A stretch of DNA of 64,000 bases from Methylotenera sp. GTDB taxonomy: Bacteria; Pseudomonadota; Gammaproteobacteria; Burkholderiales; Methylophilaceae. The position numbers were made by a program, and so were the translations under genes. Where the stretch lies: NCBI GenBank assembly GCA_020622105.1, contig JAHRYP010000005.1, positions 33,113 through 97,112 of the forward strand, read 5' to 3'. Of the stretch, positions 44,917 to 48,356 are shown piece after piece (position 1 is the stretch's first letter; each line of letters begins with the position of its first letter). The notes beneath the pieces were generated by a model. It ran no database searches. It saw nothing but the letters and a program-made list of their open reading frames with translations, and was not told the DNA's origin.

Positions 44917-47160
44917 TCAAATCGGTGTCAGTTTGGCGAATTCCATTGCCAGCCATTTCAGGCCTTCACGCCCAAAATTCACTTGTACGCGCATGTCGTT
45001 GGCATTGCCTTCGTAGCTCACTACAACGCCGTTGCCGAATTTGCTATGTGCAACCTGTTGCCCGATTTTCCACGGCATAGCATTTTTCTGGTTGCTACTC
45101 TGCTGTTTGCTCATCATGGCAGGCAGTTCGCTGTAATCGCGGTTGCTGCCGGATTTTGCAACAGGTTTGCTGTTTAAGTGCTTGAGGAGCTCGTCCGGAA
45201 TTTCATCCAGAAAGCGTGACGGGATGCCGTAACGCACTTGCCCGTGTAGCATGCGGCTTTGCGCGTGACTGATATACAGGCGCTGTCTGGCACGCGTTAC
45301 CGCTACATACATCAGGCGGCGCTCTTCTTCCAGGCCATTGGCCTCAAAGGTGCTTTGCTCATGCGGGAATAAACCTTCTTCCACTCCGCTGAGAAATACG
45401 GCTTTGAATTCCAGCCCTTTGGATGCATGCACCGTCATCAGTTGCAGGGCTTCACGGCCAACATCGGCTTGATGCTCGCCTGCTTCCAAGCTGGCATGGC
45501 TTAAGAACTGCGTCAGTAAGTCCTGCTCGGTTTCCCCGTCTACATTGTTATGGTTGCCGAAATCCTGTTTAGTAAAAGCAACCGCTGCCGTAACCAGTTC
45601 ATTCAAGTTGGCAATGCGGTCTTCACCTTCTTTTTCATTCTCGTAGTGCGCTTTCAGGCCGGATAGCGTGGTTGCTAATTCAGCCAGTTCTGCCAGCGTG
45701 ATGCCATAGGCTTCATCCACCATCTGCCGGATCAGGGCAACAAATCCTTCAACGCCTTTAGCGCCGGGTTTACCATTGCCTACCTTATTGATTGCAGCCT
45801 GCCACAAGCTGCAGTTTTCGGCGCGGGCGGATTCCTGTAGTTGTTCCAGACCGCGGGCACCAATGCCGCGTGCCGGGAAGTTAATCACGCGTAACAGTGC
45901 AGTATCGTCATTGGCATTGGCAATCAGACGCATGTAAGCAAGTGCGTGCTTGATTTCAGCACGTTCGAAAAAGCGTAAGCCGCCATATACGCGATAAGGT
46001 AAGTTGGCTGAGAAAAATGCGTGCTCCAGAATGCGTGACTGAGCATTGGACCGGTAGAGCAGGGCGATTTCGCCAAGCTCGGTGCCTTCTGCATGTAGCA
46101 TCTTGATTTCATCGACGATGAACTGTGCTTCGTCATTATCGTTATAAGCCTGATAGACGCGTATCGGCTCACCGGCGCCGGCCGATGTCCACAGGTTTTT
46201 GCCCAGACGGTTTTTATTGTGCGAAATAATCGCATTAGCAGCATTCAGAATATTGCTGTGTGAACGGTAGTTTTCTTCCAGTTTCACCACGTGCTGGATA
46301 TGGAAGTCACTTTCAAAATCACGCATATTACCTACGCGTGCACCACGGAAGCCGTAGATGGATTGATCGTCATCACCTACTGCAAACATGCAATTATCTT
46401 TGCCCGCGAGCAGTTTTAGCCACAGATATTGCAGGCGGTTAGTATCCTGAAATTCATCCACCAAAATGTATTTGAAACGGTTTTGGTAGTGTTGGCGGAT
46501 ATTACTATCGCGCTCCAATAATTCATAGCAACGCAATAACAGTTCAGCAAAATCAGCCACACCGTCACGCTGGCATTGCTTGTCGTATTCTTCAAAGATT
46601 TCTCGCAGCTTTTGGGTGTGCGGGTCATAGGCATCTACTGCATGCGCACGCAGGCCTTCATCTTTGCAGCCGTTGATGAAATTCTGCACCTGTTTCGGCG
46701 GGAATTTCTCATCATCCACATTCAGTAGTTTCATTAAACGTTTAATGACAGAGAGCTGGTCTGCAATATCTAAAATCTGGAAACTTGGTGGCAAACCAGC
46801 TTCGCGGTGGTGCGCGCGTAACAGGCGATTACATAGTCCGTGGAATGTACCAACCCACATGCCGCGCGTGTTGATTGGCAGCGATGCCGTAATGCGGGTG
46901 AGCATTTCTTTTGCGGCTTTGTTGGTAAAAGTAACCGCGAGCAGGCCAGTCGGTGAAACCTGTCCGGTTTGAATCAGCCAGGCGATACGCGCAGTCAATA
47001 CACGTGTTTTGCCACTGCCTGCACCTGCCAAAATCAGTGCAGATTGCTGCGGGAGCGTGACTGCTTCGAGCTGTTTATTATTGAGTCCGGCGAGGAGCGG
47101 GTCTTGAGTTGTGCTATGTGGATTTTGGCTATTCATAGCCGACATTCTAACATGACTCAC
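44917..47160 (-). CDS. uvrD: UvrD/PcrA-type ATP-dependent DNA helicase
   Basis: 747 aa; LILAGAGSGKTRVLTARIAWLI, VDEFQDTN, GDDDQSIYGFRGA, MTVHASKGLEF. Confidence 0.93.
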   Translation of the reverse strand: MSHVRMSAMNSQNPHSTTQDPLLAGLNNKQLEAVTLPQQSALILAGAGSGKTRVLTARIAWLIQTGQVSPTGLLAVTFTNKAAKEMLTRITASLPINTRGMWVGTFHGLCNRLLRAHHREAGLPPSFQILDIADQLSVIKRLMKLLNVDDEKFPPKQVQNFINGCKDEGLRAHAVDAYDPHTQKLREIFEEYDKQCQRDGVADFAELLLRCYELLERDSNIRQHYQNRFKYILVDEFQDTNRLQYLWLKLLAGKDNCMFAVGDDDQSIYGFRGARVGNMRDFESDFHIQHVVKLEENYRSHSNILNAANAIISHNKNRLGKNLWTSAGAGEPIRVYQAYNDNDEAQFIVDEIKMLHAEGTELGEIALLYRSNAQSRILEHAFFSANLPYRVYGGLRFFERAEIKHALAYMRLIANANDDTALLRVINFPARGIGARGLEQLQESARAENCSLWQAAINKVGNGKPGAKGVEGFVALIRQMVDEAYGITLAELAELATTLSGLKAHYENEKEGEDRIANLNELVTAAVAFTKQDFGNHNNVDGETEQDLLTQFLSHASLEAGEHQADVGREALQLMTVHASKGLEFKAVFLSGVEEGLFPHEQSTFEANGLEEERRLMYVAVTRARQRLYISHAQSRMLHGQVRYGIPSRFLDEIPDELLKHLNSKPVAKSGSNRDYSELPAMMSKQQSSNQKNAMPWKIGQQVAHSKFGNGVVVSYEGNANDMRVQVNFGREGLKWLAMEFAKLTPI

Positions 47161-47299
47161 TAAGCCTGATTTTGCTGTAGCTTACACAATGAAATTGTAC
47201 TGAAACAAAGCAATAAAACGTTTGAATGATTGTTGCTTTTAAAGGGCGGCGGGTTATTTTGTAATAAATTGTAAAAAATCAGAACTAAACAATATATTG

Positions 47300-47419
47300 G
47301 CTAGTCGTATTACCAGATAACGAAAGTTATCTTTCCGCTTCTTTCCTCCCTGAGCGGAAGCCTTAGACGATGAGGCGTTTTCGACCCCGATTTCTTCCCC
47401 TTAATCGGGGTCTTTTTTT
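47300..47419 (+). ncRNA. Candidate trans-acting sRNA with anti-Shine-Dalgarno loop
   Basis: Hairpins GATAAC-gaaa-GTTATC, TTCCGCT-tctttcctccctg-AGCGGAA, GCCT..AGGC, then terminator GACCCCGATT-n10-AATCGGGGTC-TTTTTTT; no ORF on the + strand. Confidence 0.7.
47383..47419 (+). terminator. Rho-independent terminator of the candidate sRNA
   Basis: GACCCCGATTtcttccccttAATCGGGGTCTTTTTTT. Confidence 0.9.
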
Positions 47420-47552: not shown

Positions 47553-48356
47553 GTGATGAATAATAGTAGACTCCCCACTTTCTTCATCTCTCATGGCGGC
47601 GGTCCTTGGCCTTATATTGAAGACATGCGTCAGCGTTTTGCAGTTACCGCAGCGGAGTTGGCGAAGCTACCTGCTACATTGCCAGCAAAACCCAAAGCGA
47701 TTTTAATGATCACCGGGCATTGGGAAGCGCCGCAATTTACTGTGTCAACTTCAGAACATCCGTCGATGGAATACGATTACTATGGTTTTCCTGAGCATAC
47801 TTATCACTTGCAATATCCAGCGCCCGGCAATCCTGAACTCGCAAAAAGAGTACGTGATTTACTGAGCTCATCTGGCATTAAATGTGCAGAAGACCCTGAG
47901 CGCGGATTAGATCATGGCGTTTTTGTGCCTATGATGCTGATGTACCCAGATGCGGATATTCCAGTTGTGCTGCTATCAATGAAGTCCAGCTATGACCCAT
48001 TGGAGCATATCAAGCTGGGTGAAGCGCTGGCGCCATTACGTGATGAAGGCATATTGATTATTGGCAGCGGTTTAACTTATCACAACATGCGTGGTTTTGG
48101 CCGACCGGCGTCTCTAGAGCCATCTGTGCAATTTGAGCAGTATTTGTTTGAGGCGATATCTAACAATGATCCGCAGCAGCGTAATCAAGCATTGGTCAAT
48201 TGGGAACAAGCACCCTTTGCCCGCTTGGTACATCCAAGAGAGGATCATCTGATTCCGCTCATGGTGTTGGCGGGAGCGGCCGGAGAGGATATCGGCCAGC
48301 GTATTTTTACCGACACGGTGTTTGACGTGGTGATGGCTTCATACCGATTTGGCTAA
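47553..48356 (+). CDS. LigB/YgiD-type aromatic-ring-opening dioxygenase
   Basis: 267 aa; FISHGGGP, ITGHWEAPQFTVST, RGLDHGVFVPMMLMYPDAD. Confidence 0.92.
   Translation: MMNNSRLPTFFISHGGGPWPYIEDMRQRFAVTAAELAKLPATLPAKPKAILMITGHWEAPQFTVSTSEHPSMEYDYYGFPEHTYHLQYPAPGNPELAKRVRDLLSSSGIKCAEDPERGLDHGVFVPMMLMYPDADIPVVLLSMKSSYDPLEHIKLGEALAPLRDEGILIIGSGLTYHNMRGFGRPASLEPSVQFEQYLFEAISNNDPQQRNQALVNWEQAPFARLVHPREDHLIPLMVLAGAAGEDIGQRIFTDTVFDVVMASYRFG

Follow-up and report, generated by a model that had tools for sequence, protein, structure and literature searches.

Background

MicA and RybB of enterobacteria are sigma-E-dependent, Hfq-assisted repressor RNAs, and Spot 42 (spf), which lies in the polA-engB (yihA) neighbourhood in E. 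coli, is controlled by CRP. ErsA of Pseudomonas aeruginosa is likewise encoded in the polA-engB gap (PMC8575079); it is assisted by Hfq, depends on sigma-22 (AlgU), a sigma-E homologue, and represses algC and the porin OprD (PMC8395346, PMC7565897). This three-hairpin sRNA is 132 nt long and uses its U-rich, unstructured domain II for pairing.

Two kinds of described RNA from Betaproteobacteria are relevant to the locus reported here. The first is Rfam family RF02837 (anti-hemB), represented by Burkholderia RNA 7 and, in B. cenocepacia, by ncS04, a 105-nt RNA that was detected by Northern blotting, had its 3' end confirmed by RACE, is located between BCAL0264 and BCAL0265 and co-purified with Hfq (PMC4603805, PMC5688073). 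The level of ncS04 showed no significant change in seven conditions (PMC5688073). The second comprises RF02278 (ncS03/05/27/62, bdhR1) and Bordetella S17, RNAs of two hairpins and about 60 nt that occur in several copies per genome and carry C/U-rich loops complementary to ribosome binding sites. Our literature search, which covered papers readable without a subscription, returned no mention of RF02837, no function for the anti-hemB family, and nothing relevant on a sigma-E-dependent sRNA in this group.

Family membership and extent of the sRNA gene

The DNA analysed, referred to as the window, is a 64,000-nucleotide stretch of a Methylotenera sp. draft genome. The Rfam scan recommended in the first-pass annotation was run over the whole window and produced a single match, RF02837, at 47332-47419 on the forward strand (52.6 bits, E 2e-9, against a curated gathering score of 49.5 bits). 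The match spans the complete model (positions 1-81 of 81), includes the CCUCCCUGAGCGG hairpin, the second hairpin and the GC-rich terminator of the family, and is the sole full copy above the cut-off in the 2.5-Mb draft genome. The features of the locus are as follows.

44917-47160, minus strand: uvrD (PF00580/PF13361), the divergent neighbour, constant in the window's bacterial family
47282-47287, plus strand: putative -35 element GAACTA of sigma-E (RpoE/ECF) type, the motif being conserved in homologues
47305-47309, plus strand: putative -10 element TCGTA, spacer 17, the motif likewise conserved in homologues
47315-47419, plus strand: sRNA gene, anti-hemB family, predicted transcript of about 105 nt (RF02837 match and fold)
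47315-47332, plus strand: 5' hairpin P1, AGATAAC-GAAA-GTTATCT (order-wide conservation; not in the Rfam model)
47333-47359, plus strand: hairpin P2 with seed loop CUUUCCUCCCU, loop at 47341-47351 (fold and loop conservation)
47360-47376, plus strand: hairpin P3, GCCUUA...UGAGGC (fold and covariation)
47383-47412, plus strand: terminator stem P4 with conserved loop UCUUCCCCUU at 47393-47402 (fold and covariation)
47413-47419, plus strand: U7 tail (T7 in DNA) of the intrinsic terminator, likely an Hfq site (sequence; Hfq co-purification of the B. cenocepacia homologue)
47553-48356, plus strand: LigB-type dioxygenase gene, downstream (PF02900), present in 6 of the fetched loci

It is almost certain that 47315-47419 is a real sRNA gene of the RF02837 family. 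The proposal of an sRNA gene with its own terminator, made before any database had been searched, is borne out by the family match, the homologues and the covariation described below, and the RNA, first presented as unannotated, turns out to belong to a catalogued family. Its extent, initially drawn as 47300-47419 with a transcript of about 115-120 nt, should be shortened: judging from the promoter and the 5' hairpin, the 5' end most likely lies near 47315, since the position of GAACTA-N17-TCGTA implies a start there and therefore an RNA of about 105 nt.

The window RNA resembles Burkholderia RNA 7/ncS04 in its full-length match to the model, its loop CCUCCCUGAG, its predicted length of 105 nt and its terminator. 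It differs from the Burkholderia members in adjoining uvrD instead of lying between hemB and engB, in having the stem UUCCGC where they have CCCCGC, in a sigma-E-type promoter that is absent in Burkholderia ambifaria, and in a 5' hairpin that falls outside the Rfam model.

Conserved fold and covariation

The segment 47315-47419 folds into exactly four stem-loops with a minimum free energy of -41.1 kcal/mol, compared with a mean of -24 for dinucleotide shuffles (z = -4.72). The four stems described in the first reading of the sequence are thus all present, reproduced by the fold and supported across the order. Covariation was assessed in an alignment (A2) of 41 sequences from across the order, almost none of them from the window's own family, in which the predicted structure pairs 95.5% of cells. 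The compensatory changes on which the original proposal had been made to depend are abundant: both sides have changed in 20 of the 28 pairs, compared with a shuffled mean of 8.1 and a value as high in 0 of 500 shuffles, and the number of cells changed on both sides is 80, against 18.7 for shuffles and 5-16 for structures slid along the alignment. When the partner is shifted by one to three columns, the signal collapses. Row L103 of the alignment is misregistered, an error that should reduce the paired fraction and not inflate it.

The support resides in P1 (both sides changed in 6/6 aligned pairs; 95.8% of cells paired), P3 (5/7 pairs) and P4 (9/10). The P2 stem is paired in 98.5% of cells order-wide and shows no both-side changes because it is nearly invariant across the order; its variation falls mainly between the window's family and the rest. 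In another alignment (A1), P1 scored only 50%, which we attribute to misalignment of long and short versions, and A2 was used instead. When a hairpin of at least five pairs was sought directly in the adjoining upstream sequence, 88 of 89 loci had one, as against about 50 in shuffled windows, its 3' end lying mostly exactly 9 nt before CCTCCC. The 5' hairpin is conserved across the order, yet it is omitted from the Rfam RF02837 model.

The loops CCUCCCUGAG and UCCCCU are near-invariant across the order, CCTCCCT being invariant in 46 homologues from the window's family and the terminator loop keeping UCCCCU in homologues. Variable but compensated stems together with fixed loops should be the pattern expected of a base-pairing sRNA.

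A probable sigma-E-type promoter

A few bases before the 5' hairpin, the homologues carry GGAACTT or GAACTAA followed after 15-18 nt by TCNNA, an element that we take, from what is known of ECF promoters, to be of the sigma-E type. A fixed rule, GAAC[TC][TA]-N15-18-TCNNA, framed after the loci had been inspected, matched 61 of 66 loci in the window's family (mean of 0.32 in dinucleotide shuffles). Across the order, the same rule matched 61 of 88 loci from 30 of 38 families (shuffle mean 0.41), a frequency that is biased because the loci sampled from the order were those with the better match scores. The shuffles never yielded more than 3 loci with the motif, and the promoter usually lies at a near-constant distance from the sRNA core. 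In the window itself, some positions of the -35 and -10 elements (AGAACTAA, TCGTA) do not agree with the sigma-E consensus. On this comparison, a sigma-E-type promoter very probably precedes the sRNA. The sigma-70 promoter originally read here, TTGTAA-N16-AATATA, can be read in the letters, but sites of this kind are about as frequent there as in shuffled sequence (2, against an expected 1.4).

The genome has an rpoE gene, the product of which scores 315 bits with TIGR02939, followed in an operon by rseA and rseB. Upstream of this rpoE lies GGAACTA-N17-TCATT, and GGAACTA/T-N17-TC precedes rpoE in most genomes of the genus. The strict sigma-E motif is absent from the homologues of Burkholderia ambifaria and the Comamonadaceae; in Paraburkholderia, Caballeronia, Pandoraea and Oxalobacteraceae, a GAAACTT-like variant can be recognized by eye in its place. 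Since the motif is lacking in the former groups and ncS04 is expressed at a flat level, sigma-E control is not universal in the RNA family, although it looks ancestral. The pattern seen over about 150 related loci points to an ancestral promoter under the control of RpoE, the sigma factor of envelope stress.

A genuine RF02837 base-pairing sRNA could also be driven in this strain by housekeeping sigma-70, outside any envelope-stress response. Such drive seems to be the case in Burkholderia sensu stricto and the Comamonadaceae, and both the lack of the sigma-E motif at the B. ambifaria and Comamonadaceae loci and the unchanging expression of ncS04 across the tested conditions (PMC5688073) would agree with it; however, the window and 61 of the 66 family loci keep the sigma-E-type motif with its spacing, and the sigma-70 site first proposed is at chance level, so that we consider this alternative unlikely.

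As a genome-wide regulon finder, GGAACTT-N15-17-TCNNA was uninformative (6 matches against 16 for the control) and was dropped. A second rpoE-like gene lies about 13 kb beyond the window end (C52:110483-111036, minus strand); its match to TIGR02939 is split into two pieces that overlap (184 and 47 bits), it contains one in-frame stop, and it looks interrupted or mis-assembled. Another genome of the same genus (G051) has a second rpoE copy that appears intact (224 bits).

Loops, candidate targets and the anti-Shine-Dalgarno question

The first-pass annotation drew attention to two exposed C/U-rich loops complementary to Shine-Dalgarno sequences. The loops stand, being near-invariant, but a general anti-Shine-Dalgarno role does not: in this genome, GGGAGG precedes ATG 12 times, compared with 14 for the reversed-pattern control, which is no excess. 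The perfect complement of the loop, AGGGAGG, followed by N3-10 and ATG, was found 6 times against 2 in the control, and GGAGGAA before ATG 7 times against 4. Overall, a simple genome search for loop-complementary ribosome sites gave no clear excess over the control, the counts covering perfect complements at ribosome sites ahead of ATG starts. The simplest reading of the sequence comparison is that the RNA would be a selective regulator, anti-Shine-Dalgarno in a narrow sense only, and the case cautions against equating a C/U-rich loop with a general anti-Shine-Dalgarno toxin.

It has to be considered whether the RNA is nevertheless a toxic sRNA like those of RF02278 (ncS27/bdhR1, S17), that is, a constitutive or nutrient-regulated, broadly acting anti-Shine-Dalgarno RNA that blocks many ribosome binding sites and slows growth. 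Exposed C/U-rich loops forming two seed regions are found in the double-hairpin RNAs (PMC5688073, PMC11722255), and both kinds of RNA are present in Betaproteobacteria. Set against these likenesses are an architecture of four hairpins in about 105 nt instead of two in about 60 nt, a different promoter, a single copy per genome and the lack of enrichment of loop-complementary Shine-Dalgarno sites. The link to a toxic sRNA family of Betaproteobacteria, raised when the sequence was first read, also fails at the level of the model, as RF02278 has no match at the locus at E<=1. We therefore regard a toxic RNA of this kind as decidedly unlikely, and the selective regulator as the preferred reading.

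The only clear genes among the loop-complementary sites were rplD and murC. The ribosome site of rplD (C52:18242-18261, L321) reads CAGGGAGG, which is complementary to the sRNA loop over 8 nt, and the same sequence recurs before rplD in five genomes of the genus (L321, L302, L306, L314, L317). This site may be a target or a coincidence, and its conservation may be unrelated to the sRNA. As a candidate target of the second loop, rpoE was dropped because its true start is uncertain. Elsewhere, on contig C3 (L004, about 1500-1555), a weak RF02278 match of 29 bits coincides with a CU-rich stretch and a terminator hairpin just after a porin-like ORF ending in ...MRAQMDF, and represents a possible 3'UTR-derived RNA.

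Genomic neighbourhood

Essentially every locus of the window's family has the sRNA and uvrD in divergent orientation, and the downstream dioxygenase gene is common to the closest species only. At other betaproteobacterial loci, the sRNA has the divergent hemB (ALAD) on one side and engB, then a cytochrome c gene, on the other, a placement that probably explains the name anti-hemB. The window copy adjoins neither hemB nor engB, its locus being that of uvrD; position is not part of the Rfam model. In three gammaproteobacterial relatives (L282, L283, L295), polA is located just upstream, and one of them (L282) also has engB and a cytochrome c gene downstream.

A cis-acting or divergent-gene element, such as a regulator or terminator shared by uvrD or hemB, with the family name denoting an antisense to hemB, would fit the constant divergence from uvrD in the window's family and the common divergence from hemB elsewhere, but it is scarcely credible given that the neighbour varies by clade (uvrD, hemB, polA) while the loops are invariant, that most loci examined show no overlap with the hemB reading frame, and that Northern blotting confirms the homologue in B. 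cenocepacia as a separate RNA of 105 nt (PMC5688073).

Proposed mode of action

Taken as a whole, the RNA is likely to be an RpoE-induced, Hfq-assisted repressor that acts by base pairing. Envelope stress would release RpoE from RseA/RseB, and the RNA polymerase-RpoE holoenzyme would start transcription at about 47315. The transcript would fold into four hairpins, the last being the U-tailed intrinsic terminator, and, aided by Hfq, would pair via CCUCCCU in P2 and UCCCCU in the terminator with a limited number of mRNAs, at purine-rich stretches on or close to the translation start, and lower their translation. Action would be in trans, and, if MicA, RybB and ErsA are a guide, envelope functions would be among the targets. 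For this strain we infer RpoE dependence, use of Hfq, repression by base pairing and the targets.

The likeness to MicA and RybB lies in this proposed logic, no relation in sequence or locus having been seen. ErsA resembles the proposed model in being driven by an RpoE homologue and in using Hfq. A catalogue entry and a confirmed Burkholderia transcript already existed for the RNA; what the promoter comparison adds is a testable function, that of an RpoE-induced envelope-stress sRNA. Present in about 70% of the sampled genomes of the order, the RNA is a possible betaproteobacterial counterpart to MicA, RybB and ErsA.

Distribution and possible origin

RF02837 was detected in 87 of 120 sampled genomes of the window's family (22 of 24 genera) and in 142 of 200 sampled genomes of the order (80 of 109 genera). 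Near-identical loci occur in a Methylophilales isolate and in Methylovorus mays. In the class sample, 71 of 274 genomes reached E<=1e-6, most of them with scores under the curated cut-off. No other Rfam RNA was found at the sRNA position in the class loci tested, and these matches are therefore considered distant relatives of RF02837, not members of another catalogued family. The E. coli control genome had no match above the RF02837 cut-off and none at E<=1e-6. Within the window's family, the sRNA is missing or weak (23-25 bits) in two genera (g13, g15) with genomes of about 1.2-1.4 Mb, which may represent loss with genome reduction or streamlining.

The gammaproteobacterial relatives share the polA-engB locus with ErsA, and the same neighbourhood with Spot 42; the window copy, next to uvrD, is not at that locus. 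Because ErsA occupies the polA-engB site and depends on sigma-22, its position and regulation agree with those of the RF02837 relatives, and from these two properties we infer that ErsA and RF02837 may be homologous. We tentatively suggest, with somewhat less than even confidence, that Beta- and Gammaproteobacteria have in RF02837 an ancient core sRNA, that its transcription at polA/hemB-engB was ancestrally by RpoE/AlgU, and that ErsA is one of its descendants, now divergent. If this is true, RF02837 would be the envelope-stress sRNA of Betaproteobacteria, with a 5' hairpin that had gone unrecognised; sigma-E control would have been lost secondarily in Burkholderia and Comamonadaceae; and in the window's family the gene would have relocated next to uvrD and disappeared from the smallest genomes.

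Several loci show additional elements. One gammaproteobacterial locus carries a c-di-GMP-I riboswitch (L291:2037-2121, minus strand, 77.9 bits) about 450 nt from the sRNA homologue. Tandem pairs of RF02837-like RNAs, spaced by about 200 nt, are seen at further gammaproteobacterial loci (L284, L287, L297) in some genomes (G594, G483, G440), and one genome (G504) has three in a row. G066 and other genomes of genus g19 contain several extra low-scoring RF02837-like matches each (22-27 bits), which may be paralogous CU-loop RNAs.
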